Positions 820 to 16,284 of a stretch of 34,999 nucleotides of DNA are shown here, one piece after another; positions within the stretch are counted from its first letter, which is position 1, and each line of letters starts with the position of its first letter. The notes beneath the pieces were generated by a model. That model did no database searches, was not told the DNA's origin, and worked only from the letters and a program-made list of their open reading frames with translations. The translations under genes and the position numbers were made by a program. The stretch spans positions 1-34,999 of the forward strand of contig JAQXAR010000018.1 in assembly GCA_029252805.1 (NCBI GenBank), in the 5' to 3' direction. This stretch comes from Rickettsiales bacterium. Its GTDB lineage: Bacteria > Pseudomonadota > Alphaproteobacteria > Rickettsiales > JALZUV01.

Positions 820-837
820 CTTTAAATTCTAAAAATT

Positions 838-1296
838 ATGAAAGTTTCAATTTTAAAAGCAGTTCTAATTATTGCCTTAGTATTCGCAGCTCTTGTTGCC
901 TTACAGGTAATGGGTGGTTACCATTTATCAGCTAGCAAATTGTGGTTGAAGATAGTCCTCGGATTTTTCTGGTCTGGTGCCCTCTTTACCAATGCCATTT
1001 GGTCACCCTTTAATAAGGCGTTCAAATGGTGGCATATTGTTTACGGGCTGATTCTAGCATTTTCTAGTGTTGCCTTATACAATTCAGGCGGTCTATCACA
1101 ATTAGGTATGACACTTGTTTGCTTAATTCAGGTGGCAGTATATTCTGAATTCATCTTCACGACAGATAGCGATGAATTCTTTCGAAGAAAGGTTCTTCCT
1201 GAGAGTGCTGATGAAGACGAAGAATTGGATTTGAATAGTTACAAAGAATCTGATTACCAGTATCAGAAACCCTATAGGGATGAAGATTTGGTATAA
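838..1296 (+). CDS. Four-helix membrane protein of unknown function
   Basis: I do not recognise this 152-residue protein. It has four hydrophobic stretches at roughly residues 7-27, 38-56, 63-82 and 90-110, and so is probably an inner-membrane protein. A strongly acidic and tyrosine-rich cytoplasmic tail (about 118-152) follows. It is a single-gene unit: a TATAAT motif lies upstream and a clear hairpin terminator follows at 1319-1349. It sits among mobile-element genes and is likely island cargo. Roles such as superinfection exclusion or defence would be guesses; nothing in the sequence decides. Confidence 0.65.
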   Translation: MKVSILKAVLIIALVFAALVALQVMGGYHLSASKLWLKIVLGFFWSGALFTNAIWSPFNKAFKWWHIVYGLILAFSSVALYNSGGLSQLGMTLVCLIQVAVYSEFIFTTDSDEFFRRKVLPESADEDEELDLNSYKESDYQYQKPYRDEDLV

Positions 1297-1318
1297 AGGT
1301 TTGAAAAAATAGAAAAGA

Positions 1319-1349
1319 AGGTTGAGCAAATGTGCTTGACCTCTTTTTT
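1319..1349 (+). terminator. Rho-independent terminator
   Basis: AGGTTGAGCA (1319-1328) pairs over ten positions, two of them G-U, with TGCTTGACCT (1333-1342) around the loop AATG, followed by a run of six T (1344-1349). It ends the membrane protein gene. It lies against the 3' end of the convergent recombinase gene (stop at 1352) and may work in both directions. Confidence 0.85.
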
Positions 1350-1351
1350 AT

Positions 1352-1942
1352 TTACACCAACTTCACGACATTCTGCGCAGCAGCAGAATCATATTCGATG
1401 TAACGCTGTGTCGTGCCAAGACTCGAATGACCAGCGAGTCTTCGCACATCTTCAAGGCTTCCACCAACTGAACTGATTTTTCTTGCAGCCTGACTAATGA
1501 AATTTCTTCGCCCTGAATGGCTACTCGCACCTTCAAACCCTAAATCATTGTATAATTTTTGAAAGAAGTTCACGATGGTCTGTGCAGATGGTCGGTTTGA
1601 GCGCTGTGTTTTAATCACTCGTTCAACACCGTCAGGCGCATCATCGAGACTGCTTAACAGAAGCTGCAATGCATCTTTCAACTTAGGATGCAGGTAAATC
1701 ACTCGACCACCCTTCTTGCCTTTACTTGCAGTGTTGGTGAGTTGAATCGTGTCAGTCAAACTACCCTCTGTGTCAGTAACCATTGACCACGTCAAAGATG
1801 AAACCTCTTTCGCACGTAAACCAGCTTTAAACGACAGCAAGAACATCACACGATTTCGTTCAGGGTGTTGAGTCTTCGATAAATAATCTAAAGCGACATT
1901 TTGTTGCTTGTCAGTAAGTATCTTTGCTTGGCGGTTTAACAT
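1352..1942 (-). CDS. FimB-sized tyrosine recombinase (catalytic domain only)
   Basis: At 196 residues this is essentially a stand-alone catalytic domain of the phage-integrase family. The active-site set is visible: Arg43 in GLRAKE, a beta-hairpin Lys near 74-77, His142-x-x-Arg145 in HSGRRNF, His172 in AGHSS and the nucleophile Tyr181 in QRYIEYD. The N-terminal core-binding domain of full integrases is absent, as in the roughly 200-residue FimB/FimE DNA-inversion enzymes. It lies mid-island and is not next to an att site, so it probably does not integrate this island. A degraded 3' end of a close relative lies at 11931-11981, so the gene travels on more than one element. The substrate is unknown; inversion or resolution is possible. 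Confidence 0.88.
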   Translation of the reverse strand: MLNRQAKILTDKQQNVALDYLSKTQHPERNRVMFLLSFKAGLRAKEVSSLTWSMVTDTEGSLTDTIQLTNTASKGKKGGRVIYLHPKLKDALQLLLSSLDDAPDGVERVIKTQRSNRPSAQTIVNFFQKLYNDLGFEGASSHSGRRNFISQAARKISSVGGSLEDVRRLAGHSSLGTTQRYIEYDSAAAQNVVKLV

Positions 1943-2372
1943 GATTATCTCGTTATACTTTATTCAAATGAATGTAAATAATACTAAGACTAGACATGAA
2001 GTCAAGTTGAATCATCCCGTAAGCATTGCAAACACTAGGCTTGGTATAAAATATAGATTTCATACTGAGGTTGATTTTGAGGTGAACGTTGTTGCTAATT
2101 GGTTCAATACGACTGCAAAAAACTTCACTCATAAGCATCTGTAAAATAATGATTCAGAAAAATAATTGCACTTTTTTGAAATTATTTTCACGTCAAATCA
2201 CTCGATTTTGAAGATTTGAGCCGCCTGAATATCAACATTATCATTTAATAACAGAATGATGATAGGGTTTTAATCCTACATCACCTCAAAAACACCATTT
2301 TTATAAATAAAAGTACGCAATGGAGTTTCTTTACGTCCTTTGCAGCAACTCAAAACGAAGGAATGACAGGTG
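1943..2372. other. 430-bp intergenic region with an AT-rich inverted repeat
   Basis: No gene is convincing here. A perfect 9-bp inverted repeat, AAAATAATT (2159-2167) and AATTATTTT (2180-2188), has a 12-base spacer containing six T. It could be an operator between the divergent recombinase and AlpA-like genes, or part of a replication origin for the neighbouring HUH-like protein. Neither is shown. Confidence 0.35.
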
Positions 2373-2570
2373 ATGACAACATTACTAACCACCATTGAAG
2401 CTGCACATTATCTCAGTGTTTCAGCGCAAACCATGAAGAACTGGCGAAGCTTAGGCAAACCACCAAGCTACATTAAATTGCAAAATGAAAAGATGGTCAG
2501 GTATCGACAAGGTGACCTTGATAGTTTTATCGAGCAGTTGGAATTGATGAATGTTGAGGGTGATGTTTGA
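2373..2570 (+). CDS. AlpA-like helix-turn-helix protein
   Basis: The 65-residue protein has the excisionase/MerR-like signature: LTTIEAAHYLSVSAQTMKNW is the helix-turn-helix, and a wing with VRYRQGDLDSFIEQ follows. I start it at ATG 2373 because AAGGA at 2358-2362 is correctly spaced; a GTG at 2370 directly precedes it. Its TGA stop overlaps the ATG of the next gene (TGATG, 2568-2572), so the two are translationally coupled. An AlpA-like protein coupled to a replication protein is a common satellite or plasmid-like module, with this protein as regulator or origin-binding factor. Specific targets are unknown. Confidence 0.75.
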   Translation: MTTLLTTIEAAHYLSVSAQTMKNWRSLGKPPSYIKLQNEKMVRYRQGDLDSFIEQLELMNVEGDV

Positions 2571-3220
2571 TGTCGTGCATTCTCAATTCCAAAGACGCAG
2601 AAGGAGAGATAAGAACTGAATCTCTTGCTAAGAAAAAGTATCTTCGTTCCAATGGCTTAAAGTTCAAAAGTTATGTTGAGGTGTATGATTACTTTATCAA
2701 CATACTTGACCCGCAATATTTCATCACCATTGCATTCAATCCTGATAAAAAATCTAGGCCAATAAAGAAAAGTGATGATGAGAAAAATCAACGACATGAC
2801 AAATCAAAAAAGTTTCGTCCAGAAATTGCCAGAAGGTATTACTCTCAAAAACTGAAATATATTTTTGGTCGGATGGATAGAAAGTTGGTTGGAAAAACAT
2901 ATCAGCACCCTGCAAAGAGAGAAAATCGTTGCGAAGGATTGGCAATCCCAGAACACCAAAGTTCTAATTTTCATTATCATATCTTATTGACGAACCAAAA
3001 TCATAGTGAAGATGAACTGCATAATGCGATGGATTACAGCTTAACCAAGCTAAGAATGGATTATGCATCTTACGACATTCAGAAAATATGGAATGTTGAA
3101 GGCTTAAAGCACTACAGCCTGAAAGAGTTTTATAAACGATTGAGAACAAATGACATAGCAACCATTAACAACATTGCAGAACAGTTCATTCTGCTGGGAG
3201 AATTTCATTCTGAACACTAG
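2570..3220 (+). CDS. Putative HUH-type replication initiator or nickase
   Basis: The 216-residue protein shows features of rolling-circle Rep/HUH endonucleases. A hydrophobic strand FITIAFNP (about 51-58) resembles motif 1. FHYHILL (134-140) has the His-hydrophobic-His arrangement (His135, His137) of the metal-binding motif 2. Tyrosines near Lys185 in HYSLKEFYKR (181-190) could serve as motif 3. The middle (60-120) is highly basic. It is coupled by a one-base overlap to the AlpA-like gene, as expected for a replication module of an integrated element. It contains Tyr-rich stretches, so the catalytic Tyr cannot be fixed by eye. It could instead be a relaxase-like or uncharacterised protein. 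The 268 bases after it hold no gene I can support. Confidence 0.5.
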   Translation: MSCILNSKDAEGEIRTESLAKKKYLRSNGLKFKSYVEVYDYFINILDPQYFITIAFNPDKKSRPIKKSDDEKNQRHDKSKKFRPEIARRYYSQKLKYIFGRMDRKLVGKTYQHPAKRENRCEGLAIPEHQSSNFHYHILLTNQNHSEDELHNAMDYSLTKLRMDYASYDIQKIWNVEGLKHYSLKEFYKRLRTNDIATINNIAEQFILLGEFHSEH

Positions 3221-3488
3221 GTTGAATATATGGAACCGTGCAACGCATAATTGAAGTATACTGACCTTTTCATCTTTGTTTCTCTTGTTACTTTATCCAA
3301 AGCAGCAATGGCGAAGCAATGGTTGGTTCGCTTGCGATTGATATACAGATAAGGTGATGTGTTGCTTGAGTTGATTGTTCAAGATTCATTAAAGCAGTTT
3401 TCTTGAAGTGTATGTGATTTATGTGGGTTGGTATGTAAAATTGAAAGAAGATGCTTCTAGAGAGCTTAAATGAGCAGTATGAAGATGT

Positions 3489-3782
3489 TTATTGTGAACA
3501 AAGAGTGAGATTATTTAAACGATGTTTTTCTTGTCGGTCTTGTAGATTGATTGCAGTAGAAATTTGATTTGCAACTTCTTCATTATGACAATGAATAACA
3601 AAGCCATGATGCTTATGAACCAGCTTGTAATCTTCAACCTTTGCTTCCTGAAGTTGATGTTCGATTGCTTCTTGTTCAGCAGCATAATCAAACACATCAG
3701 CGTAGATAATATCCTTGGTTGATGGGATGTAGAATTTTACCCAACCAGTGTACATTGGTGATGGTTCGATATGTAGATTCAT
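3489..3782 (-). CDS. Hypothetical protein, 97 residues
   Basis: I do not recognise this protein. It is soluble, begins with a predicted beta-rich part (GWVKFYIPSTKDIIYADVFD), has an acidic, glutamine-rich helix around residues 34-48, then His-rich KHHGFVIHCHNEE (57-69). It has no signal peptide or membrane segment. It lies 17 bases downstream of the PH-like membrane protein gene on the same strand, so the two are probably co-transcribed. No Shine-Dalgarno is evident, consistent with coupling to the upstream gene. Confidence 0.5.
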   Translation of the reverse strand: MNLHIEPSPMYTGWVKFYIPSTKDIIYADVFDYAAEQEAIEHQLQEAKVEDYKLVHKHHGFVIHCHNEEVANQISTAINLQDRQEKHRLNNLTLCSQ

Positions 3783-4973: not shown

Positions 4974-5319
4974 ATTCCTTTTGTCGTTTGACCGCCAAGT
5001 TGATTTCTTTCAATTCTGTCTTCTGTGATTTCTTGATAAAGCCATGTAACAAAATCATTTCACCATCATCTACACAGAACATTACACGAACAATTCGTTT
5101 ATTCGTAATGTCACATCGAACTTCCCACAACCCTTTATGACCTTTGATTTGACGACATAAAGGTAGACCAATTGGCCAACTGAATTCACAATCTTTAATC
5201 GCAATGCCAATAAGCTTTCTATCTTCCTTATCCAGCCCTAACAACCATTGACGCACAGGCTCTTTACCTGAAGTCATGTGAAAGAATTTAGCAGTCAGTT
5301 TTTTTCTATCAATTACCAT
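4957..5319 (-). CDS. RelE/HigB-like (Gp49 family) toxin
   Basis: This 120-residue protein resembles phage-derived Gp49-like RelE toxins, ribosome-dependent mRNA interferases. Typical marks are the N-terminal segment with VRQWLLGLDKEDRKLIG, the central LCRQIKGHKGLWEVRCDI, then RIVRVMFCVDDGEMILLHGF and IKKSQKTELKEINLA near the end. I choose ATG 5319 because it gives the family's normal N-terminus; an upstream start at 5349 would lie deeper in the integrase gene. The start overlaps the integrase's 3' end by seven bases, so integrase, toxin and antitoxin form one overlapping transcript. Toxin activity is inferred from family. Confidence 0.8.
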   Translation of the reverse strand: MVIDRKKLTAKFFHMTSGKEPVRQWLLGLDKEDRKLIGIAIKDCEFSWPIGLPLCRQIKGHKGLWEVRCDITNKRIVRVMFCVDDGEMILLHGFIKKSQKTELKEINLAVKRQKEYEANG

Positions 5320-6572
5320 GATTGTACCATATTTGGTGCATAATGCCAACGCAAAATTTCATCCATCTTTTCGTTAGGTTCAGCAATTTTCATTAATTTG
5401 TCAGTGTGGTATTGAATCAAAGACAGTGGTTTTCGTAAAACTTCAATGCCGCCTTGAATATAATGACGGCCAGTCACAGATTTATTTTGACTATGATTTA
5501 GAAGTCTTGATACCAACGATTCGCTGGCGGTCCTTTGATACGCCAACTCTGAAAATGTACGTCGTAAATCGTGGCAAGTAATGCGTAAACCACACCTTTC
5601 TTCTATCCTTTCAACAAGCTTTTTGGGTTCTTCAATATGTCCAGATTTACTGGATTCACTAGGAAAAACCCAACTACTTTCATTCGCAGTAGATTGTTGA
5701 AGCTTCAACAACTCAAATATATTGTCTGTAATTGGCAGAATGTGAGGTTTGCCATTTTTTGTTTTTGGAATATATAAAATCAAATTGTCAAAATCAACAT
5801 TGCGCCATGTCAATGTCATGGCCTCTGTTTTTCGTAATCCTGAGTATAAAATGAGCTTCAGAAGATTAACCAATGCTGCGTTTTCATCTTCGATAAGCGC
5901 AGTGTACCAAGTTTGCATCTGATGTGGCTGAATGTAGTTTTTGCGAGCTTTGCAAGGATTCCATTCTTCTTTTGTTGTTAGAATTTTCACTGGGTTTTTA
6001 TAAATATCATTGTCAGCGAAATGATACTTTAAAACCGATTGCAAGCTAGTGAACGCTTTATTTGCAGCGTAAGGTCCTGCCTTTTTCGTAATGCTGTTAT
6101 GACGCTTCAAAACCATGTCAGCAGTAATGATTGATACAGGTTTACTCATCCAATCTGAAAGATGACGATAAAATGTTGCGCGAAATTCTTTTGGATGTTT
6201 CAGTTTTTCATTTTTGATTCTATTAGCAAGATATGTATCCAATGCAGTTGTCAATTCTGTCGCTTGCAGCTTGGTCATTTGCAAACGGTCTTTCGGATTT
6301 TTACCTTCCTGCATTTCAAAGTGTTTTGCTCGCGCTGATTTTCTGGCTATCTCAACGCTTATTTCTGGAAAGCGGCCAAGCTTGATACTTACGTACCTAC
6401 CCTTCAATCTCTTTCTGAAAAAGAAAGTTTTACTGTTCTTTCCAACTTTTATGTGTAAGCCTTGAACCTTGCTATCCCAAACTACCACCTGAATTCCTGA
6501 TTCGTTTGGTAACTTGCTAATAATATCTTTAGTGAGATTTTTTGTATTCTTATTTTCTGTTTTGCTAGTCAT
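5313..6572 (-). CDS. int: P4-type tyrosine integrase of the island
   Basis: At 419 residues this is a full-length P4-type integrase. The N-terminal DUF4102-like domain spans about 15-90 (VQGLHIKVGKNSKTFFFRKR, YVSIKLGRFPEISVEIARK), the core-binding domain about 105-200, and the catalytic domain follows. Active-site residues are Arg247 (SGLRKTEAM), Lys272 (KTKNGKPH), His334 and Arg337 (CHDLRRTF), His360 (LLNHSQNK) and Tyr371 (RHYIQGG). It lies next to attR and reads into the island, as P4-type integrases usually do. Candidate arm sites lie upstream at 6600-6726. Its last seven bases overlap the toxin gene, tying integrase and toxin-antitoxin expression together. Confidence 0.93.
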   Translation of the reverse strand: MTSKTENKNTKNLTKDIISKLPNESGIQVVVWDSKVQGLHIKVGKNSKTFFFRKRLKGRYVSIKLGRFPEISVEIARKSARAKHFEMQEGKNPKDRLQMTKLQATELTTALDTYLANRIKNEKLKHPKEFRATFYRHLSDWMSKPVSIITADMVLKRHNSITKKAGPYAANKAFTSLQSVLKYHFADNDIYKNPVKILTTKEEWNPCKARKNYIQPHQMQTWYTALIEDENAALVNLLKLILYSGLRKTEAMTLTWRNVDFDNLILYIPKTKNGKPHILPITDNIFELLKLQQSTANESSWVFPSESSKSGHIEEPKKLVERIEERCGLRITCHDLRRTFSELAYQRTASESLVSRLLNHSQNKSVTGRHYIQGGIEVLRKPLSLIQYHTDKLMKIAEPNEKMDEILRWHYAPNMVQSW

Positions 6573-6599
6573 GTCATCTTCTGTATTTTAGTTATGCTT

Positions 6600-6726
6600 T
6601 AGTGACCATGCTGGGTAACAACTGGTACAACTAGAAAATAGAATAAAATTGAGAAACTGCAAAATAAACATTATAAAACAGTAAATTATAACAACTCATG
6701 TGACTGCATAATAACAGGTACAACTA
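6600..6726 (+). repeat. Right-end integrase arm-site candidates
   Basis: TAGTGACCA (6600-6608) matches the left-end repeats. GGTACAACTA occurs twice, at 6624-6633 and 6717-6726, and a related GGTAACAACT lies at 6614-6623. All lie between the integrase start codon (6572) and the attR core (6749), which is where arm-type and excisionase sites are expected. The region has no gene. Confidence 0.5.
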
Positions 6727-6748
6727 ACAAATTAAGTCAAAAATAGGT

Positions 6749-6793
6749 TTGACATCGACGAGGTCGGGGATTCGAATTCCTTACCGCCCACCA
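6749..6793 (+). other. attR core plus displaced 3' half of tRNA-Val
   Basis: The 19-bp core (6749-6767) is followed by the T-arm and acceptor strand of a tRNA-Val ending ACCGCCCACCA (6783-6793). No 5' half precedes it. ACCGCCC is a perfect complement of GGGCGGT at 69-75, so this is the original chromosomal 3' end pushed 6.6 kb away by the integration. Confidence 0.9.
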
Positions 6794-7022
6794 TATTTTT
6801 CAATAGGTTAGACGAATAACACTTACACCTCTTAGAGTCCGTTGCTCCCCAGTTGCTCCCCTTGAGATACACTCCCAGCTATTTTTATCCATTCCTATCA
6901 AGCTCAAATCTATCTTCTTTTACAAGTTCCTGAAGGTGACTACGAAGAATTCCTGTGGCATGCAATCTAGCAAGAGGTAAAGTAGTTGCGGGTTCGACTC
7001 CTTATTTTGCTTCTCAGTATAG
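6794..7022. other. Gene-free junction with GTTGCTCCCC direct repeats
   Basis: GTTGCTCCCC occurs at 6841-6850 and 6852-6861, an 11-base period, 48 bases outside attR. Such helically phased repeats resemble integrase arm sites and could be relics of an earlier element in the same tRNA. A minus-strand open stretch (about 6890-7000, containing LARLHATGILRSHLQELV) may be a gene remnant. Around 6980, GGGTTCGACTCC looks like a tRNA T-loop but cannot be folded into a tRNA. Confidence 0.3.
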
Positions 7023-7601
7023 GAGGCGTCCGCTAGCTTCCTATGGCTAGGAAATAGTAAAAACAAAGGAATCGGAGTTTTTGCCAGAAATGGTCATTCA
7101 GTAGAGAGCTTGGGGTGGGATGATGGTGGCTTTCAGTCTTTTCTGCCGTGCACTATTTCTAACGATTTTAATCTCCTTGCTATTTGGACAAAGAAGGTGG
7201 ATTCGCAAGCTACAGGATATATTGCTCAGTTGTGGAAATATTTACAGCTTCACAAAAGTCGACTTTGTTCCTCGCCAATGATTCTCTGTGGCGACTTAAA
7301 TAGTAGTGCTTTATGGGATAAGAAAAGAGTCTGGAATCACAGTAAAGTTGTCAGTGAGCTAGATGAGATAGGATTCAAAAGTCTTTACCACGAGTTAACA
7401 AACGAAGAGCAAGGTAAAGAGTCGCGGCCAACACTTTTCATGCATCGACAGATTGAAAGGCCCTATCATATTGATTACTTTTTCATTCCAGAATTGGCGC
7501 TAGAAAATAGTCAATTAACGATAGGTGACCCTACCACTTGGCTGGAACTCAGCGATCACATGCCGTTAGTATGCGATGTAGAGGAAGATAAACTTTTATA
7601 A
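7023..7601 (+). pseudogene. 5'-truncated endonuclease/exonuclease/phosphatase family gene
   Basis: The frame is open from a TAG at 7020-7022 to the stop at 7601. Codons before the first usable start (TTG 7110) already look like family sequence (LWLGNSKNKGIGVFARN). Conserved EEP motifs follow: ILCGDLNSS (metal and active-site Asp/Asn), RPTLFMHRQ, HIDYFFIP and the C-terminal LSDHMPLVCDV with the catalytic Asp-His. The N-terminal third, with the Asn and Glu motifs needed for metal binding, is missing, and I found no detached piece in the window. So this is a decayed gene cut by an earlier rearrangement. The substrate class (DNA, lipid or other phosphodiester) cannot be told. Confidence 0.7.
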
Positions 7602-7829
7602 AGTTGGTTAAAGTTATATTTGTGGCTTTATCAAATTCTCCATAATGGAAGTTTTCAAAATTGTTCATAAAAAGATGGCTAGCAGAATCTTTGTTTGAAC
7701 ATGAGTCAGTCATAAAAATATCGCCAACACCACAACTACTGGCCTGAAGCTGCCAGCAGATATTGGTGCATAAGTGATTCGGCCAGTGATAACTCAAACT
7801 GGCCTAGTGGGCTGTGAACGGGATCGCCG
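7602..7829. other. Gene-free stretch with GGCCAGT inverted repeats
   Basis: GGCCAGT (7781-7787) and ACTGGCC (7798-7804) form a perfect 7-bp inverted repeat with a 10-base spacer, and a further ACTGGCCT lies at 7738-7745. These sit downstream of the RepB-like gene and could be a binding site for the ParB-like proteins or the end of the serine-recombinase element. No gene is supported. Confidence 0.35.
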
Positions 7830-7931
7830 TCATTCCCACCACCATGATTGCTCCATATCTGTTCTTACCAGATGGCTTCTCCCATGGTCCCGGCGCTTTT
7901 GGATCCCGGTCTCCGTTAGTTTGGTATTCAC
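7830..7931 (-). CDS. Candidate 33-residue protein ending in a Trp triplet
   Basis: On the minus strand, 23 bases after the stop of the RepB-like gene, a GTG at 7931 opens a frame of 33 codons ending in TGA at 7830. The product is basic and hydrophilic (KLTETGIQKRRDHGRSHLVR) and ends DMEQSWWWE. The frame stays open upstream back into the RepB-like gene. The last position in the recombinase operon and the biased composition suggest a real small protein or the tail of a lost one. I do not recognise a family, and no convincing Shine-Dalgarno is present, so it remains tentative. Confidence 0.3.
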   Translation of the reverse strand: MNTKLTETGIQKRRDHGRSHLVRTDMEQSWWWE

Positions 7932-7954
7932 CTCATAGCCAAACCCTGCTTCAG

Positions 7955-8866
7955 TTACGCCGCCACCTCCTCACGTAACGACGATATTTCGGTAATGCGC
8001 TGAAACTCATTCAATATGTTTGGGTGATGCTTGGACAAGTAGCGCGTAATTTGTGTGTTCTCGAGCAAATTACTCAGATAGCCTTTCGCAAAGGTGAGAC
8101 TCAGCACATCGGCACCATAACCTTCCTCAATAAGCTTATATTCTCGTTGCAAGCTAGCCATCTCATTTTCCATGCGTGCCATTTGCTCCGGTGTGAGTCC
8201 TTTAATGCTTTTGGGCTTTTCAGGGTTCTTGAGTTGATCTTTAGGCGTACTGCCTAGAATGGCTTTGGCGTAGGTTGCATTAAAGCTATTGGCATCAACC
8301 ATAAGCGTTGCGGCTTCAACCTGTCGCAAAGGCTTCATACGCTTGAGAACATTGAATACACTACCCGGAACAATCTTATCTTTGAGAATCTCGGCTGCTT
8401 CATCACAGATGCCCTTCAAGAGATTACGCTTCATGATAATACTCTTCACATCAAGGTTCAGCGCCGCCGCTATTTTATCCTCTGACACGCCTCGCTCAAC
8501 CGCTTTCAGAATCATTTTATGCTCCTGGATGGGGGCAAGACGGTTTATATGTTTGTTGTAGGTGAAGGATTCATCATCTGATGAAATTAGGCATAGCGTT
8601 TTCTCCTGCTCCAAATCTTGCAATGCCTGCAAACGCACATGACCATCAAGTAAATAATAAGTGCCCTTCTCTTCTGTCACGACCAATGGCTCAATCACGC
8701 CAATTTCACGAATAGAGGAAAGTATTCGTTTGTATTTAATGCTCACTTTGATGGCTTTGGTCACCACCCGCGTAGGCGTTATTGTTTTAAGCGGCAGTTC
8801 TACCAGCCGATCTTCAAAGCCAATGGTAATATTATCTGTAAAAAGCTGTGAACCTCTAGAACTCAT
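7955..8866 (-). CDS. RepB-like ParB-domain protein (plasmid-partition RepB family)
   Basis: The 303-residue protein has a ParB-like N-terminal domain (about 22-110) in which the usual GERR box is replaced by DGHVRL (74-79) and the ENLQR region by NKHINRLAPIQE (104-115). A helix-turn-helix follows near 126-148 (VSEDKIAAALNLDVKSIIMK). The C-terminal half resembles RepB C-terminal domains (KIVPGSVFNVLKRMKPLRQV, then a long helix KSIKGLTPEQMARMENEMAS). It overlaps the ParB-like gene by four bases (8863-8866), making it the third gene of the recombinase operon. No ParA/RepA ATPase is present, so ordinary plasmid partition is unlikely. A DNA-bridging or recombination-control role is inferred. Confidence 0.82.
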   Translation of the reverse strand: MSSRGSQLFTDNITIGFEDRLVELPLKTITPTRVVTKAIKVSIKYKRILSSIREIGVIEPLVVTEEKGTYYLLDGHVRLQALQDLEQEKTLCLISSDDESFTYNKHINRLAPIQEHKMILKAVERGVSEDKIAAALNLDVKSIIMKRNLLKGICDEAAEILKDKIVPGSVFNVLKRMKPLRQVEAATLMVDANSFNATYAKAILGSTPKDQLKNPEKPKSIKGLTPEQMARMENEMASLQREYKLIEEGYGADVLSLTFAKGYLSNLLENTQITRYLSKHHPNILNEFQRITEISSLREEVAA

Positions 8867-9747
8867 GCGCCTTCTCCCAATAATTCGGAAATAGGCTTGG
8901 GGATAGTTTCTAATCCTTCCGCTTTCAGAAGCGTCATAAAATGCTCTTCTTCATAAATACGCCGTAGCGATTGTTTGATGAAAAGCAATCGGTGGCTAAC
9001 GAGACTAGCTTTGCGCGTGAGTAGGGATTTACGATCGACTTCGCGCTGATAGACTTCCATCACATCGCCTGCAGTGACGATGCCCGATCCAGAACCAGAC
9101 TTGGAGTTTCGTTCCTCTGGAGTAGATCCCATACCCTTGCCGAGTCGCTGGCGCTTCTCGATTAGATTTTTGGCCAAAAGCAATTTCTTGCCGCGCAATT
9201 GTTTCTTTTCATAAGCCTCCTGTAGTGCTTCCTGACCACTACCGGATGATGTAGCAATGGACATTGCCACCGTGAGCGGAATATGACCGGATTCGACTGC
9301 CGCTAGTAGACGCTGCTCACCGCGTTTCAATAAGTCGAGCACCGCATAAACATATTTATCGCTCAGTCCCGTCTTTTTCGCTATTTCAATAGCTTTATAC
9401 CCCTTTTGCTGAAGAGCTTCGATTCCCTGCAGAAGATCGATAGAACGATGCTGACGCCTTGCTAGATTCTCAACCAGACTCATAATCAGCGCCTCTTCTT
9501 CAGAAGCTTCAATCACAATAGCAGGAATATGCGTTTGTTCATGCGCCTCAAACGCTTCAATACGCCCCTGTCCGCAGACAAGATCATATTTCTTCTCACC
9601 AGAGGAAGATTCCGTCACGGTAATGGGACGCTTCAAACCTACCTTGGTGATATTCTCGGTAATAGTCTGAAAGATACGCTTATTGCGCACCCGAGGATTT
9701 AAGATATTGATATCTTCAATCGAGATCATTTCTATCTGCTGGCTCAT
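8863..9747 (-). CDS. ParB/RepB/Spo0J-family protein
   Basis: The 294-residue protein has a ParB N-terminal CTP-binding-like domain: VCGQGRIEAF (57-66) at the GERR position and LVENLARRQH (91-100) at the ENLQR position. A helix-turn-helix lies at about 119-140 (AIEIAKKTGLSDKYVYAVLD). A basic, Gly/Ser-rich linker (about 195-222) leads to a helical C-terminus. The arginines of the ParB boxes are retained better here than in its partner, so nucleotide binding is plausible. It overlaps the serine-recombinase gene upstream and the RepB-like gene downstream by four bases each (ATGA), implying fixed stoichiometry. It may act as a heteromer with its neighbour. There is no parA. Confidence 0.85.
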   Translation of the reverse strand: MSQQIEMISIEDINILNPRVRNKRIFQTITENITKVGLKRPITVTESSSGEKKYDLVCGQGRIEAFEAHEQTHIPAIVIEASEEEALIMSLVENLARRQHRSIDLLQGIEALQQKGYKAIEIAKKTGLSDKYVYAVLDLLKRGEQRLLAAVESGHIPLTVAMSIATSSGSGQEALQEAYEKKQLRGKKLLLAKNLIEKRQRLGKGMGSTPEERNSKSGSGSGIVTAGDVMEVYQREVDRKSLLTRKASLVSHRLLFIKQSLRRIYEEEHFMTLLKAEGLETIPKPISELLGEGA

Positions 9748-11315
9748 ACGGATTCTGGCTCCTTAATAGGTTCACGCTCCGTCATGAAAAAGAAGGCTTC
9801 GAGATCATCAAAACGATAAGCATCTAAGGCAAGACCATTATGCTCGTTCAGGCGTAGCTTCGGATTTTCAATATCAATGGAAGGCAGCAGATAATAGTCG
9901 AGAGGTTGCTGATTTTGTGCATCCATGCGAATAGCAATTGTTACATCTGGCTCCAAACCAGAATCCAAGCGCATCTTCCAGCGATACGAGCCAGCAGACG
10001 TTTGCAAACATCTGCATATTATCATGGAAACGCTCACCTCATCATTAATGTTAAACAGGTCGGAGCCGACCTGGTGCGTAATAGTGGCGCCGAGCGATTC
10101 GATTTTCTGAATCGTTTGCGCAAACACATCCGCATGAAGCTTGCGAAGATAGCGGTTAATTTCGATATAACGGTAATCACGGTCAGGCGTATAGCCAATC
10201 AACTTGTAGGCGCGTATTAAACTGCCAAAACGGTTAGAATAAGCTCCACTAGATGGCATATTCTCCTGCTCATCGATCACGACACCAGATAACCAGCCAT
10301 TACGTTCTTGTAAGCGCTGTAATTTCTCTAGCATTTCTTCATTACTGTAACGGCGATTGCGCTCTCTTAGGATTCCTTGCACCGTGTAGAAGTCGCTAGG
10401 GTTAACAATGGCTTCAAAAACCCCTTCTGCACGCACCCACATTTCAGGGTCATTTTCAACAAGGCGGTTTTTGAGCTTGTTCGAAGTACGGTTGAAGACG
10501 TTATTGCCGATATATTTTTCGTTGGTGAGAATCTGATGCACGGTGCCGCGACTCCAATCTCGCCCGAAATCTGTTTTGATGCCGCGTCGGTTTAATTCAG
10601 TGGCTATCTGACTTTCTTTCATGCCCTCATTGATAAAGGAGTCATACATCCAACGTACGTTTTGCACTTCTTCATCAGGTCCCGGCACAAGAATGACGCG
10701 ATCTGTTTGAAAGCTTTTATGCTGACCAGGCTTTAGCACGCCTTTGGTTAATCCGTGTTCATCAATCAGCATCCGCCGCAATCCATAGCCAGCAGGGCCG
10801 CCTTGGCGATAACCTTTTTTAATCAACCGACACTGACCAGCAAATACTTTGCCGGATAACTCACGACTATATTCGCCAGCCATTGCGCGTTTTACGCCTT
10901 TGACGATCGTTGCGACAGGGCTTCCATCATTTTCAAATTGCTCGGCAACATATTGAACGTCGATACCCGCACGACGGCAGATATATTCATAATAGGCGCT
11001 TTCATCGGCATCTTGAAAACGTCCCCAGCGTGTGACATCTAGAACCAGAATAGTCCCAAACTCGGCGCGTTTGTTTTCTACATCTTCAATTAAGCGCCTA
11101 AGTGCATCGCGTCCCTCAATTTTGAGACCGCTTTTTCCATGGTCGGCATAGGTGTTAATAATCTCGAGATTTTTCTTATCCGCATATTCCCGAATGGTGG
11201 CTTCTTGGTTTTCGGTGGAGTATTTTTGATGATCCGTTGACATGCGCACATAAATGGCAGCTTTAGTTGGATTAGGTTTAACAGCCTTGTTGTTTTCATC
11301 AAAAATCTCGTTCAC
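9744..11315 (-). CDS. Large serine recombinase
   Basis: The N-terminal resolvase domain has the nucleophile in YVRMSTDHQ (Ser26 from the GTG start) and conserved TILVLDVTRWGRFQDADES. The recombinase domain follows (KKGYRQGGPAGYGLRRM, WSRGTVHQILTNEKYIGNNV), then a coiled-coil segment rich in Glu/Arg and a C-terminal domain special to this alphaproteobacterial group. I choose GTG 11315, preceded by AAAGGAG at six bases, giving 523 residues; a TTG at 11342 is less likely. Such enzymes integrate and excise elements by a Ser-DNA intermediate. It leads the three-gene operon with the ParB-like pair, and its att sites are not obvious here. It probably mobilised this segment. Confidence 0.93.
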   Translation of the reverse strand: MNEIFDENNKAVKPNPTKAAIYVRMSTDHQKYSTENQEATIREYADKKNLEIINTYADHGKSGLKIEGRDALRRLIEDVENKRAEFGTILVLDVTRWGRFQDADESAYYEYICRRAGIDVQYVAEQFENDGSPVATIVKGVKRAMAGEYSRELSGKVFAGQCRLIKKGYRQGGPAGYGLRRMLIDEHGLTKGVLKPGQHKSFQTDRVILVPGPDEEVQNVRWMYDSFINEGMKESQIATELNRRGIKTDFGRDWSRGTVHQILTNEKYIGNNVFNRTSNKLKNRLVENDPEMWVRAEGVFEAIVNPSDFYTVQGILRERNRRYSNEEMLEKLQRLQERNGWLSGVVIDEQENMPSSGAYSNRFGSLIRAYKLIGYTPDRDYRYIEINRYLRKLHADVFAQTIQKIESLGATITHQVGSDLFNINDEVSVSMIICRCLQTSAGSYRWKMRLDSGLEPDVTIAIRMDAQNQQPLDYYLLPSIDIENPKLRLNEHNGLALDAYRFDDLEAFFFMTEREPIKEPESV

Positions 11316-11375
11316 GAATTCTCCTTTATCTTCATTAACCAATACTCGCCATGCGACTAAATAACGGCATCACTG

Positions 11376-11408: not shown

Positions 11409-12062
11409 ATGTCGCTAACGAAAAATACGCAAGAATTTCCAAACAAAATCACAGAACGAAACATCATTATTTTGATTGGGAACTTGCTGCGCAATATTCA
11501 TCCAAATGAGAGTGCTGCAGTAAAACGAATCAGCCGAAAAACTGGCATTGAAATACGAACTATTGAGGGCTGGTTCCAATCTCGCAACACGCCGAATGTA
11601 AAGAACTTATTGCTACTAATGCTTCATTATCCTGAGATAAAAGAAGCTGTCATGAAAATTACGCGTAACAACATTGATGAGCACATCACTTTCGATAATA
11701 AATCAGCTAAAAAGATTGGGAAGCAAACAGGCAATAATTTTAACCCATTTCAGATTTATAGGGTCATTTTTGACCCTATAAATTCAATCGCCGATACTCG
11801 AAAGATTTCAGATTTGAACCTTCGTCAGCTATGGTTCGTGAACGAAATACATAATGGTTCGAATCCCAATTCAGAATCCATACAGGCTATCTGGGGTAAC
11901 GCCCTAGTGGTTTCAACGGTCAAACCGTTTTTACACCAACTTCACCACATTCTGTGCCGCACTGGTATCATATTCTATATAATATTAAGAGGCTCTGTGA
12001 GGAGATGGATAAACATAGACGAGTTGGCTGTAAGTTTATTAGATGTCAGCTATTTAAGTTAA
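11409..12062 (+). CDS. HTH regulator with chimeric C-terminus
   Basis: A strong AGGAGG precedes the ATG. Residues about 17-75 form a helix-turn-helix (SAAVKRISRKTGIEIRTIEG then WFQSRNTPNVKNLLLLMLHY), a type common beside alphaproteobacterial recombinase operons. Residues about 140-165 (LNLRQLWFVNEIHNGSNPNS) look like a second winged-helix motif. After about residue 168 the frame runs through a hairpin and then antisense to the tail of a decayed recombinase gene (11931-11981), so the last 50 or so residues are probably not native. The gene was likely fused to junk by a deletion. It is divergent from the serine recombinase and may have regulated it. A perfect 30-bp palindrome lies inside it. 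Confidence 0.6.
   Translation: MSLTKNTQEFPNKITERNIIILIGNLLRNIHPNESAAVKRISRKTGIEIRTIEGWFQSRNTPNVKNLLLLMLHYPEIKEAVMKITRNNIDEHITFDNKSAKKIGKQTGNNFNPFQIYRVIFDPINSIADTRKISDLNLRQLWFVNEIHNGSNPNSESIQAIWGNALVVSTVKPFLHQLHHILCRTGIIFYIILRGSVRRWINIDELAVSLLDVSYLS
11754..11783. repeat. Perfect 30-bp palindromic hairpin inside the HTH gene
   Basis: ATTTATAGGGTCA (11754-11766) is the exact complement of TGACCCTATAAAT (11771-11783), with four T between. It falls in the linker between the two HTH parts of the gene and is in frame. A 13-bp perfect stem is unlikely by chance. It may be a protein-binding site, a mobile palindromic element, or an RNA hairpin. Confidence 0.85.
11915..11932 (+). terminator. Terminator-like hairpin
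   Basis: AACGGT (11915-11920) pairs with ACCGTT (11924-11929), followed by T to 11932. It lies directly against the stop of the recombinase remnant, the same place a terminator occupies beside the intact recombinase at 1319-1349. It probably once ended a convergent gene. It is short, so only moderately convincing. Confidence 0.45.
11931..11981 (-). pseudogene. 3' remnant of a FimB-sized tyrosine recombinase gene
   Basis: The minus strand encodes YIEYDTSAAQNVVKLV then a stop (11933-11931), matching the last 16 residues of the intact recombinase at 1352-1942 except for Ala to Thr and Ala to Ser changes. It includes the catalytic-tyrosine motif. DNA similarity is also plain. Upstream the codons no longer match and a stop appears at once. 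This is the deleted end of a second copy, marking the edge of an older element. Confidence 0.85.
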
Positions 12063-13014: not shown

Positions 13015-16000
13015 TCAGCGTTTTTCGCGCATAAATGAACCGGGTTTCTTACGACTCGGCACATAATCTCCTTCTTTTTCGTTTTCCACTAACGATTCTT
13101 TCTCAACGGCCTTAACCGGCACTTCTATCTCTGCACCCGTTTGGGGAGGTTCTTCTGCTTGCACTGCCTCTTTTGTCGCTTCTTGGGAGGCTTCATCTTC
13201 CATGGTCTGCACATCGTCTTCGACCTCTTTCAAAGCATCTTCAGCAGTCTTAGCATCTTCCACTTCTTGCTTCGAAGAAGGGTTGAAAATATCAAAGAAT
13301 CCACGCAAAAATCCTGGGGTTAGCACCGATAACGGATTGACACTAATTTTGGGATCATCCGCCTTTCCCTTCATGCTGTAATTCACCGCCACCAAGCCTT
13401 CACCGCCGGTTAGCACTTTATAAACCTCACCAATAATAGGAATACCACCCAACACCGTATCGAGTAATTTTGCGGGGATAACCGCGCCCTCAATTTTCAA
13501 CGTATCAGGTTTAATATCGAGGGCGCCATCGGCGGTAATCCCAAGCGACGGCCCTACAGCACGTGCGTCTTTAATGATCAATTTTTGCGTGTCATATTGG
13601 AACGGCACCACCATTTTCTGGAAACTCAATCCGCCCCCAGACATCACATCAAGAATCCCGGTGAACGTGGCAACGGTCAACAACTTTGCTAAAACAGGGA
13701 CACCTTTTACATTAAAGTCATCTAACGCAAAACGGCCTGCCATTGGATTATTCGGCAGATCATCTTGATAAACCGCATTTAAGCTCAGAGAGCCGTTGCG
13801 CATATCATCGAACAAGCCAGTCACACGTAAAATGCGTCCAAGATTTGGAGTCGTCGCAGAGAAGTTCCGTTTACCGTCAACCTCCCCCACTTTAGCAGCA
13901 ACTGGCACATCACCACTACGCGTCTGGAGGGAGAAACTTTGACAGCGCTTATTTGAGCATTTCGCCGTCAGTTTGAGATCTTGTAATTCTCTATCTTCAG
14001 CAAATCTGACCTTATCAAGCGACACATCAATCACAGCATCTGGGATATTTGCTAATCGCTGCAACACCGATTCTCCTGAACTTTGTTTTTCAGATTGATC
14101 GCCCATGAAAGGCTCAAGGTCTAGCATCTCTGCGTTGATCGTTAGATTATGCTGAGTGCCCTTTCGGAAGTAATTCCCGTTAAGCTTAGTCTTCCCTAAC
14201 GTAAGATGGTTCATTTGACTCTTCAGCACATTACCCGTCTTTTTACTGACTTCTAAAGAGCCCGAAAACTTAATTTGAGAATCATCAATCGCCAGAGAGG
14301 ATAGGAATATACGCCCACTGGAAGCACTCCCGTTAGCTCTGATATTCCCTGCTTGCCCAGCCACCTTTCGGATCTTTAAATCTGGAATCGAATAGCCCAT
14401 ATCGCGCGTATCCGCATTGAGGAGAACTCTCGGACGTTCACCGGAATTCTGTACCCAGTCCGCTTCCAAATCAACTGCACCTGACAGGTAACGGTTTAGG
14501 TCATTCGAGGCGAGAGCAGCAACCGATACCGGCAAGTACCCCGAATAGTGATATTGCTCGCTATCCTTTGTGATGCTTAAATCGGTATCGAATTTCTGCT
14601 GATTGAACTTACCGCTCGCAGAAAACTCGACCCCTGCATTATTGGCTTTTATTTCTCCATTAAGCGCAGATAAGTCAGCGCCTTTGGCCAGCCCGGCATA
14701 AGCAACATTTTGCAAATCACCCTTTAGTTGGAAATCCACTTCATCTTCAACGGGCGAGACTTGATCAATCACTTTCATGGAAAGCACACCTTGCAACCGC
14801 CCCTTCATAGATGCTGGGTTTAAAGAGAATGACGCGGGTAGTTTATAAGGCGTGGATTTCATAAACTCTAATACGTCGCTAATTTTGGCGGTCAGCGGTA
14901 TATCAATCAAAATATTAACATTATTCACCATCAAATCAGGAATGCGCACGCGTGCAAATGGGTAGGCTCTGACCGGATGTAATTTAGTGCCACTCAGCAT
15001 GCGCACCGAATCAATCTCCGCTAATAAGGTTTGTCCGGCAAAAATCACACGGCCATTAGCTTTCTTTACTTCCGGGAAGCCGGCAACGAACTCTATAATT
15101 GAGTCTTCCACATGTAAAACGGCCTGCACTGCATCACTCGGCAAGATATCTTGCTTTAAATCCTTAGGAGTTAGATTGATATTAAACTCACCTTTTTTGA
15201 CCGTCGCCTGGCGGATACTGCTCGTAATCCAGCGATAGGCGTCTTTGCCTACGCCTTGAGGCCAGTTTTTCTTCAAAAAAGGTAAATCGAATTCACCCAA
15301 CGAACCTCGCGCTAAGAAGCTTGGCTGATCGAACGTTCCACTCACCTCACCTTTCACTTTCAGATTAGCCAGCGCCTTACTCTTTAAGTCGAAATTCAGC
15401 ACCTCAATCTGGTTAGGAAAAACAATACTTGATTCGATCCTTCCCGAAAGTGGCACACTCACTTTAGCCAAATCCGCAAGTGCCGCACTTGCTTTGGCAA
15501 ACTGTGATAACGTGATTTGATGCACATTCACATCTGCTTTGAGTTGCTTGCCTTCATGCGCGTAATGGAAGTTAGATTGCAACAAGGCAGGCTGCTGACG
15601 ATCATTCTTATAAGAAGCTGAAATACTACCGCTCACCTCTTCTGACAATAAAACGGAATCAATATGGGCGGAAAAGTTCGGTAGCTTAAGCTCAAATCCG
15701 GTCAGTTCGCTTTTATATTCCATCGAGGCGCGGGATATATTGACCCGTCCGATACCGAGCTCGAACAGGTGCTCTAGACTAAATGCATCTTCAGTTTTCA
15801 CTGTTTCAGATGTTTTATCTGCGGCAAAGAAGAGTGAGTCTAAACGCGTTGGAGCGGCCTGCTCACGTGTATCAAGATAAAACACACCCTGCTTATCCTG
15901 TAATATTGCAAAGTCAGCTCCTAATATCTCGACACTATTGGGAACGAATTTACCCTTCAACATTCCCCAAAAGCTCGGAGAGAGTTTTAACTCAGGAATA

Positions 16001-16284
16001 TTAAGCAACACCTCTCCGGCTGGGTTCTTCAATTTCAAAGATTCGATCGATAATAAAAGCGGCGCTTTAAAGCCTTCATTCTTCAAAACGACTTTGCCGA
16101 GTTGTAAATCGTATCCTAACTTGGCGAAATCGACATCAAATTCCTGCATAAGGGCAGGAACATGCGCCGTCATATCGCGGGGAGTCCAGCTGAGCCAAGC
16201 GTAGAGACCTAAGCTAATACCCAGCACTAATGCTAAAATCACCGCAAAAGTAGTGTCTAACCAATTGAAGGTTTTTTTAAGCAT
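13015..16284 (-). CDS. AsmA-like giant envelope protein (DUF3971/AsmA_2, YhdP-type)
   Basis: I start this 1089-residue protein at ATG 16284, where a -10 lies just upstream and the N-terminal helix begins at once (LDTTFAVILALVLGISLGLY, about 7-27), a single membrane anchor. The rest is a long beta-rich periplasmic body of the DUF3971/AsmA kind, with repeats such as GEVSGTFDQPSFLARG, a cysteine pair in KCSNKRCQSF, and the conserved C-terminal AsmA_2 region (LLTVATFTGILDVMSGGGLS and the GIPIIGEVYKVLTGGEG segment). It ends in an acidic, glutamate-rich tail and a short basic end. AsmA-like proteins such as YhdP and TamB are implicated in lipid transport between membranes. It is divergent from glnE. 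Confidence 0.85.
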   Translation of the reverse strand: MLKKTFNWLDTTFAVILALVLGISLGLYAWLSWTPRDMTAHVPALMQEFDVDFAKLGYDLQLGKVVLKNEGFKAPLLLSIESLKLKNPAGEVLLNIPELKLSPSFWGMLKGKFVPNSVEILGADFAILQDKQGVFYLDTREQAAPTRLDSLFFAADKTSETVKTEDAFSLEHLFELGIGRVNISRASMEYKSELTGFELKLPNFSAHIDSVLLSEEVSGSISASYKNDRQQPALLQSNFHYAHEGKQLKADVNVHQITLSQFAKASAALADLAKVSVPLSGRIESSIVFPNQIEVLNFDLKSKALANLKVKGEVSGTFDQPSFLARGSLGEFDLPFLKKNWPQGVGKDAYRWITSSIRQATVKKGEFNINLTPKDLKQDILPSDAVQAVLHVEDSIIEFVAGFPEVKKANGRVIFAGQTLLAEIDSVRMLSGTKLHPVRAYPFARVRIPDLMVNNVNILIDIPLTAKISDVLEFMKSTPYKLPASFSLNPASMKGRLQGVLSMKVIDQVSPVEDEVDFQLKGDLQNVAYAGLAKGADLSALNGEIKANNAGVEFSASGKFNQQKFDTDLSITKDSEQYHYSGYLPVSVAALASNDLNRYLSGAVDLEADWVQNSGERPRVLLNADTRDMGYSIPDLKIRKVAGQAGNIRANGSASSGRIFLSSLAIDDSQIKFSGSLEVSKKTGNVLKSQMNHLTLGKTKLNGNYFRKGTQHNLTINAEMLDLEPFMGDQSEKQSSGESVLQRLANIPDAVIDVSLDKVRFAEDRELQDLKLTAKCSNKRCQSFSLQTRSGDVPVAAKVGEVDGKRNFSATTPNLGRILRVTGLFDDMRNGSLSLNAVYQDDLPNNPMAGRFALDDFNVKGVPVLAKLLTVATFTGILDVMSGGGLSFQKMVVPFQYDTQKLIIKDARAVGPSLGITADGALDIKPDTLKIEGAVIPAKLLDTVLGGIPIIGEVYKVLTGGEGLVAVNYSMKGKADDPKISVNPLSVLTPGFLRGFFDIFNPSSKQEVEDAKTAEDALKEVEDDVQTMEDEASQEATKEAVQAEEPPQTGAEIEVPVKAVEKESLVENEKEGDYVPSRKKPGSFMREKR

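Follow-up and report, generated by a model that had tools for sequence, protein, structure and literature searches.

The stretch of DNA considered here, referred to as the window, comprises 34,999 nucleotides (nt) of contig JAQXAR010000018.1 (C18 in this analysis) from the 2.19-Mb genome of a Rickettsiales bacterium (GCA_029252805.1). Three genes follow one another on its reverse strand. The first (9744–11342) encodes a large serine recombinase of 532 amino acids (aa), recognized as such by its Resolvase catalytic domain (PF00239, 1.8e-22) and Recombinase DNA-binding domain (PF07508, 1.5e-24); the second (8863–9747) encodes a ParB-like protein of 294 aa with ParB_N and RepB domains (PF02195, 1.9e-10; PF07506, 4.9e-13), and the third (7955–8866) a RepB-like protein of 303 aa (PF07506, 1.2e-46; PF02195, 0.00035, below its cut-off). 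An initial annotation of this DNA had described the three genes as overlapping by ATGA, and the coordinates bear this out, with a 4-nt overlap at the recombinase/parB and at the parB/repB junction. The boxes it had pointed out are likewise present, as VCGQGR and LVENLARR in the ParB-like protein and LLDGHVR and TYNKHINRL in the RepB-like protein, and they are conserved in relatives. The trio stands as described, but a fourth gene, a divergent regulator, and a structured RNA had been overlooked. The regulator (11409–11897, forward strand) is 56% identical over 163 aa to an intact homolog of 196 aa (L024:2743–3333); it is truncated at residue 163 of 196, and its open reading frame (ORF) continues to 12062 in unrelated sequence. 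The intact homolog adjoins a second copy of the locus in the same genome, on contigs C6 and C19, in which the recombinase is 88% identical to that of the window; the end of C6 cuts repB, and the remainder of the gene stands at the start of C19. The RNA element (7737–7921, reverse strand) matches a covariance model, R1, at 7779–7916 (6.6e-29), and homology with the sister copy ends at 7737. The reading favored here as the more probable one takes the trio as the core of a mobile module for site-specific integration, in which the recombinase works with two cofactors of the ParB/Noc fold. The module would occupy about 3.9 to 4.3 kb, in the order regulator, recombinase, ParB-like gene, RepB-like gene and, usually, structured RNA.

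The association of the three genes was followed through several collections, with profiles of the recombinase, ParB, RepB and regulator built from 17, 17, 16 and 12 rows, respectively. A scan of genomes seeded with RepB gave 568 confirmed loci, and among the best 80 of these, a set chosen by RepB, recombinase, ParB and RepB occur in this order in 74; five of the others are cut by a contig end, and in one (L055) ParB is incomplete and the recombinase absent. The regulator is matched in 63 of the 80. Gene order is steadier than the exact overlap across these loci, the recombinase gene ending in ATGA in 43 of 73 and parB in 40 of 79. Since this set had been chosen through RepB, the converse search was started from the recombinase. 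Its profile is matched in 18 of 289 genomes of the class, 16 of which also hold both ParB-like genes. When recombinase matches of at least 420 bits are counted (n = 22; two weaker fragments were dropped), both partners adjoin 20 of the 22, including the copy of the window's own genome that is split over two contigs. The two exceptions are a locus cut by a contig end (G377:C34) and one in genome G269 that is without the pair, upstream of which a terminase-like gene and a gene for a ParB-domain methylase were recognized by eye. Among 55 genomes of the same order there are nine recombinases at least 67% identical, two of them the genome's own copies. The regulator and at least part of ParB accompany all nine, and RepB, whole or cut by a contig end, accompanies eight; the ninth contig ends inside ParB.

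The same linkage is seen in contigs predicted to be viral by IMG/VR, some of which may be islands rather than phages. In the best 80 of 116 relatives, 1,750 nt or more follow the recombinase in 67 cases, the other 13 being cut. Both partner genes are found in 59 of the 67, neither in L246–L249, and one in L178, L183, L222 and L245; the recombinases of L245–L249 score lower, at 491–572 bits. The initial annotation had proposed a search of genomes for the trio, and the outcome is an association far above chance (74/80 of the loci found through RepB), with a near-obligate linkage in the class sample (20/22) and the viral set (59/67). Recombinases without the pair, which it had named as a point that would count against a joint function, were encountered, for the most part among relatives of lower score (G269; L246–L249). 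Among viral contigs of at least 15 kb, 49 of 71 have the recombinase match no more than 4 kb from a contig end, compared to 20.5 expected under random placement, with 29 of the 49 near an end on the regulator side and 20 on the repB side. Among 50,697 phage records a single one holds the trio, an unverified contig from human faeces. In plasmid relatives the proteins carry the NCBI names 'recombinase family protein', 'plasmid partitioning protein RepB C-terminal domain-containing protein' and 'ParB/RepB/Spo0J family partition protein', and one relative of the regulator is annotated as 'DeoR family transcriptional regulator'. A plasmid of Paraburkholderia caribensis (L045) carries two diverged trios in opposite orientation, about 3 kb apart (829–3502 and 6367–9876).

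The limits of the module are clearest on plasmids. Agrobacterium pAtC58 and pAt1D1460 share a block of 3,904 bp, 96.9% identical, that extends exactly from repB to the regulator and contains no replication gene; outside it, the compared stretches have two matches under 40 bp. Sites without the module were found for both flanks. pTiCFBP5473 matches the pAtC58 flank (92.5%) right from the base that follows the block and is without the module at that place, and in Shinella pShin-12 the pAt1D1460 flank is accompanied by one GGTTCGAATCCTGTCAAGGCGA site, again with no module, the similarity beginning 21 bp inside the block end, within the site GGTTCGAATCCTGTCAAGGCGATCG. Each Agrobacterium copy starts with GGTTCGAT and ends with GGTTCAACTCCCTTC.AGGCGA, and 16 of 22 positions agree between the two ends. 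These repeats are of the GGTTCRAYYCC type and by eye resemble the T-arm and acceptor part of a tRNA gene; ARAGORN finds no tRNA at the Agrobacterium module ends. The Agrobacterium and Shinella plasmids together therefore provide discrete ends with direct repeats, and occupied and unoccupied relatives. A comparison of element ends, as had been suggested for the trio, thus gave direct repeats for the Agrobacterium copies; none were found at the ends of the window copy.

Other groups show related boundaries. Plasmids of Aminobacter and Rhizobium share a block of 4,196 bp at 92.7%, and the Aminobacter copy has GGTTCGATTCC at its regulator-side end. In Sphingobium plasmids the module plus one gene (L038, 4563–10187) stands where relatives carry nhaA or arsenic genes. 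In many close loci of Rhodobacteraceae, similarity drops abruptly about 150–226 bp after repB, near the end of the last hairpin of the RNA, and in L065, L070 and L073 the left boundary lies about 120 bp past the regulator stop. The 250 bp that follow the regulator stop contain the sequence TGGCGGAG, read from the other strand as the 3′ end of tRNA-Ser, at 8 of 63 loci, compared to 31 of 3,751 background blocks; L065, L070 and L073, which are among the eight, are related. A gene that appears by eye to encode a ParD-like antitoxin adjoins the regulator end in other Rhodobacteraceae loci, such as L087, L096, L105 and L123, where it stands in the place of the tRNA-Ser end of L065, L070 and L073. 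In L058 the sequence after repB reads by eye as the 3′ half of tRNA-fMet from the anticodon loop onward, and a similar tRNA-fMet 3′ part was recognized by eye beyond the regulator in L091; another tRNA-like end is found in L122, and a whole tRNA-Arg lies 0.36 kb after repB in L064.

A conserved non-coding element of about 190 nt is found 3′ of repB. The first profile of this element was built from 15 loci and recovered it in many more, and the window copy is one of the 39 rows of model R1. RNAalifold, applied to 37 aligned copies, predicts 25 pairs, 14 of which show pair-keeping changes on both sides, and 97.1% of the cells pair. There are 83 cells with changes on both sides, compared to 22.0 in shuffles (0/500); the covariation score is 0.348, compared to 0.179 ± 0.008 in shuffles (0/500) and to at most 0.114 when the partners are slid. 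Further pair types do not exceed the shuffles (28 vs 27.2; 207/500). The sequences are related and the structure was derived from the very alignment on which it was tested, so that these controls flatter it; compensatory changes are nevertheless numerous. On the operon strand, several pairs are maintained through G-U, and by eye there are further hairpins beyond the modelled structure. The loop of hairpin P5 (alignment A5, columns 97–103) often reads CGAACC, complementary to the T-arm GGTTCG; with six bases, this may be chance. A known RNA family was considered and rejected, in that the Rfam gathering scan of the window returned tRNA-Val only and the E-value scan of the element from L087 gave no match up to 5.

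The small frame noted earlier downstream of the operon falls within this element. It has 33 codons, starts with GTG, ends in WWWE (7830–7931, reverse strand) and is judged not to be a gene: it overlaps the structured RNA, and in the sister copy an insertion or deletion in a hairpin loop shifts the frame, with loss of WWWE. Some sense frame is open over 33 codons in 71 of 72 RNA elements, and openness alone is therefore uninformative.

R1 was searched against 39 genomes chosen through module loci, with up to 87 candidates scored per genome. It finds 38 copies in 33 of these genomes, and 35 of the 38 lie 1,804–1,879 bp downstream of the recombinase on the same strand. The other three are the contig-split copy of the window's genome, one at a decayed module (G075:C16) and a second copy in Ruegeria conchae. 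The RNA is lacking within 4 kb of 8 of the 41 full-length recombinases in the 39 genomes, in one case only because of a contig split. The element is present in 61 of the 79 genome loci whose sequence continues past repB (many being rows of the model), in 23 of the 80 viral loci, and in 5 of the 8 order loci with DNA beyond repB; it is not universal in the module. At the Ruegeria conchae locus (L074) the two copies, at 10920–11115 and 15954–16149, are in direct orientation and, over 197 nt, 87% identical. The repeated sequence coincides with the RNA element at both of its ends, and between the copies lie ORFs of 1166 and 295 codons, which by eye are helicase/nuclease-like and PIN-like.

This arrangement bears on the role of the element. 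It might be a recombination site that folds as single-stranded DNA, like attC, and receives cassettes, and the direct copies in L074, surrounding about 4.8 kb of cargo, speak for such a site; so does the fact that homology between loci stops at the right end of the element in many pairs. Against this, nearly every copy found follows a recombinase, the exceptions being the contig-split copy, the decayed module and the extra copy in L074; pairs kept by G-U on the operon strand speak for RNA, and 13 of the 18 genome loci without the element retain a recombinase match of at least 820 bits. An attC-like site is accordingly regarded as very unlikely. A cassette platform with many such sites was also considered, and the copy counts are mostly against it within the limits of the search; scattered copies may be missed, because only up to 87 candidates were scored per genome and the genomes were chosen for the module. 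A bolder proposal gives the RNA a working role in the recombination complex, in which a serine recombinase would need or be guided by RNA together with a ParB/Noc-fold clamp. Like the bridge RNAs, it is a structured non-coding RNA conserved with a recombinase, in the 61 of 79 loci given above. The proposal is doubtful; if true, an RNA-dependent serine recombinase would be a further case of RNA-associated DNA rearrangement beside the IS110 bridge RNAs and transposon-encoded nucleases.

The two partner proteins both belong to the ParB/Noc fold. The profile of the ParB-like protein matches structures of Spo0J, Noc, ParB and KorB, and a structure model of the RepB-like protein (mean predicted local distance difference test, pLDDT, 80.7) matches CTP-bound ParB with a Z score of 13.7 and Noc with one of 13.5. 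Box II reads GQGR in 12 of 17 ParB-like proteins and GEGR in 5 of 17; in the RepB-like proteins it reads DGHxR in 40 of 40, with NKxxxR as a second altered box. Both differ from the GERR box of Spo0J and Noc. The suggested split into a nucleotide-binding and a degenerate partner is an argument from motifs: both proteins depart from that box, and the RepB-like model still matches CTP-bound ParB. RepB is not a decayed copy; the RepB-like proteins make up a conserved subfamily, marked by its own invariant residues.

Although the genes share the ParB-family protein of ParABS and repABC systems, the ParA/RepA ATPase gene of those systems is missing. The window holds no ORF of at least 150 aa with the ParA-type motif KGGxGK[ST], there is none in the 35 genome loci of 18 kb or more, and the motif is absent from 19 further loci (order relatives, plasmids and one phage record). 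The initial annotation had named parA in most homologous loci as a finding that would refute its view; the absence of ParA that it had reported for the window is instead extended to these loci, with one exception. L160 (G075:C16) has a ParA motif some 6 kb away from a decayed module, the contig being one that carries a replicon of plasmid type. There (1495–2431 and 6950–9075) the start of the recombinase is fused to the end of RepB, with the regulator and the RNA element kept, and the ParA-type and ParB-type genes of the plasmid replicon are about 5–7 kb from the decayed module. A role in plasmid partition was rejected for want of a ParA-type motif in the module loci. The earlier view that the ParB-like pair goes with the recombinase rather than with partition is upheld by the near-obligate linkage, the lack of ParA-type genes nearby and the mobility of the unit.

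A different use of ParB relatives has to be weighed, namely that an ordinary large serine integrase of islands or prophages is accompanied by ParB and RepB as maintenance genes, which stabilize the excised circle or the host replicon without taking part in recombination. The kinship of the partners to ParB and Noc agrees with such a role, as do the many copies on plasmids, where 71 of 110 records with RepB are typed as conjugative, and the related recombinase without the pair that adjoins a terminase-like gene. It is nevertheless judged unlikely, since no ParA-type motif accompanies the module in the 35 loci, gene order and the spacing between recombinase and RNA are constant over large sequence distances, and both genes have been retained in the 3.9-kb block, which has no replication gene.

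The recombinase itself has an unusual C-terminal part. In 40 recombinase sequences R33, S35, R78, D102, R105 and R108 are invariant; these residues are assigned to the active site, which includes the nucleophilic serine and arginines. A structure model of the protein (mean pLDDT 79; predicted template modelling score, pTM, 0.50) matches large serine integrase complexes over residues 24–328, with Z up to 19.5. Residues 398–526 match the PD-(D/E)XK homing endonuclease I-Ssp6803I (2ost) with a Z score of 10.0 and a root-mean-square deviation of 3.2 over 119 aligned residues; the same part compared with Eco15I gives Z 7.2, within the range of chance. Search of this part against PDB sequences with phmmer gave no match up to E 5, and the homing-endonuclease-associated repeat PF18780 is predicted weakly just ahead of the domain (0.0015, below its cut-off). 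Large serine recombinases typically have a zinc ribbon and a coiled coil at the C terminus, and no such Pfam match is present in the window recombinase. The conserved residues of the C-terminal part are N433, E435, R444, W455, D466, R472 and D482. A clear (D/E)xK is not evident among them by eye, and the corresponding position seems to read I-x-R, by eye and without structural alignment. Since (D/E)xK was not seen, the domain is taken to bind rather than to cut, and it is probably not a nuclease. The target of I-Ssp6803I is the anticodon region of the tRNA-fMet gene.

These parts may be combined into a mechanism for the proposed integration module. The serine recombinase would catalyze insertion, cutting and joining at the module ends and at tRNA-like targets, since no other recombinase lies within the 3.9-kb block. 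ParB and RepB would bind the DNA of the module and assemble or steer the synaptic complex, perhaps as directionality cofactors. The PD-(D/E)XK-like domain may replace the usual zinc-ribbon and coiled-coil part and recognize tRNA-like targets. The RNA would be transcribed at the 3′ end of the operon and act in regulation or in the recombination complex, and the regulator would control the operon.

A number of observations weigh against this account. RepB is found in 110 plasmid records (E up to 1e-5) and the recombinase in 61 (E up to 1e-60), and in Sinorhizobium (L043) there are pieces of RepB without a recombinase. The RNA is missing in 18 of the 79 genome loci, and likewise from the Agrobacterium, Aminobacter and Rhizobium plasmid loci L037, L041 and L042, which are among the clearest cases of a block. 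Nor are the blocks always clean. Two further places in pAt1D1460 match other parts of the pAtC58 query, and the Aminobacter and Rhizobium plasmids share a second stretch of 2.1 kb beyond repB, which begins 55 bp past the repB-side end in one plasmid and 4.4 kb past it in the other. Similarity runs past the ends in L074/L107 (to +3.8 kb) and L114/L126 (to +6.8 kb), and in L087/L096 it continues past the left end. Another integrase is found nearby in some loci, a tyrosine integrase in the window and in L025 and a broken serine recombinase in L103, and passive carriage is therefore possible in these three. That the unit has moved is shown by comparison of sequences rather than by observed excision. 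The match to I-Ssp6803I rests on the pLDDT 79 model of the whole recombinase, and among the 50 matches listed by Foldseek, Eco15I, not 2ost, is the only one for the C-terminal part. Finally, a scan of the 80 genome loci for a general T-arm motif gives no enrichment at the module ends: the 500 bp nearest the end contain 5 hits over 59 loci on the regulator side and 5 over 73 on the repB side, with similar rates further out. The T-arm was consequently rejected as a general target, and tRNA targeting is supported for the named loci only.

The genes around the module raise the question of whether it is itself a defense system, whose recombinase and ParB-like proteins would act on DNA that enters the cell and whose RNA would serve as sensor or guide. 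Its neighbors are often of defense type (restriction endonuclease, AbiEii, Dnd-associated, RES/Xre, and type I or IIG restriction-modification genes). Such genes are common beside the module in L037–L042 and L025, a tally made without a control, and no association is claimed. Islands of all kinds carry defense-type cargo. There is no convincing PADLOC match, the best being 9e-4 for the recombinase and 1.2e-3 for RepB, with none for ParB or the regulator, and the block boundaries and the position near the ends of viral contigs fit integration better. A defense function is therefore considered highly improbable.

In comparison with known systems, the integration module is closest to the large serine integrases such as those of Bxb1 and phiC31, with which it shares the catalytic and recombinase domains. 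It differs from them in its two additional ParB-like genes and, usually, a structured RNA, in the C-terminal part resembling a PD-(D/E)XK homing endonuclease, and in its ends, which in the best-resolved case are tRNA-like repeats of about 20 bp. The best NCBIfam matches are to CcrA/B/C of SCCmec (CcrB, 9.9e-19, 67 bits), far under the 900-bit cut-off of the family, and we know of no ParB/RepB partners in the SCCmec cassette recombinase systems. RepABC and ParABS share the RepB and ParB_N domains and the ParB/Noc fold with the module, in which the operon is led by a recombinase and no ParA-type motif was found (35 loci). I-Ssp6803I has a fold like that modelled for the C-terminal part of the recombinase; in the module this fold would be fused to a recombinase and, with (D/E)xK not evident, is probably not catalytic. 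In IS110 bridge-RNA and OMEGA systems a structured RNA also stands beside a DNA-acting operon, whereas the module has a serine recombinase and different proteins. TIGR TasA loci are described as occasionally carrying a ParB-like gene, tasParB (PMC12045711). To that extent TIGR-Tas with tasParB is a related precedent, from which the module differs in its serine recombinase and other proteins.

No description of the module, a serine-recombinase mobile element, or of its RNA was found in the open-access literature searched, and the covarying RNA has no match in the Rfam scans. If the proposed reading holds, it ties ParB-type clamps to site-specific recombination without partition, and serine recombinases, which are used in genome engineering, may gain a new targeting part in the homing-endonuclease fold. 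The module is spread over genomes of the class, plasmids and predicted prophages, and as a self-contained unit of 3.9 kb it makes the role of each part directly testable.

The neighborhood of the window copy includes a second element. A repeat of 53 bp, 83% identical, links 11930–11982, after the truncated regulator, with 1351–1403, at the end of a XerC-like fragment. Because the sequence that follows it resembles the end of this fragment, the window regulator may have been cut by another insertion. The XerC-like fragment (1352–1942) lies in an island of 6.6 kb, together with a tyrosine integrase (5313–6572) and a Gp49/HTH toxin-antitoxin-like pair. Its borders are an intact tRNA-Val (69–145) and, at 6744–6799, a partial copy that comprises the 3′ half from the anticodon loop onward; the partial tRNA-Val more likely belongs to this separate tyrosine-integrase island.

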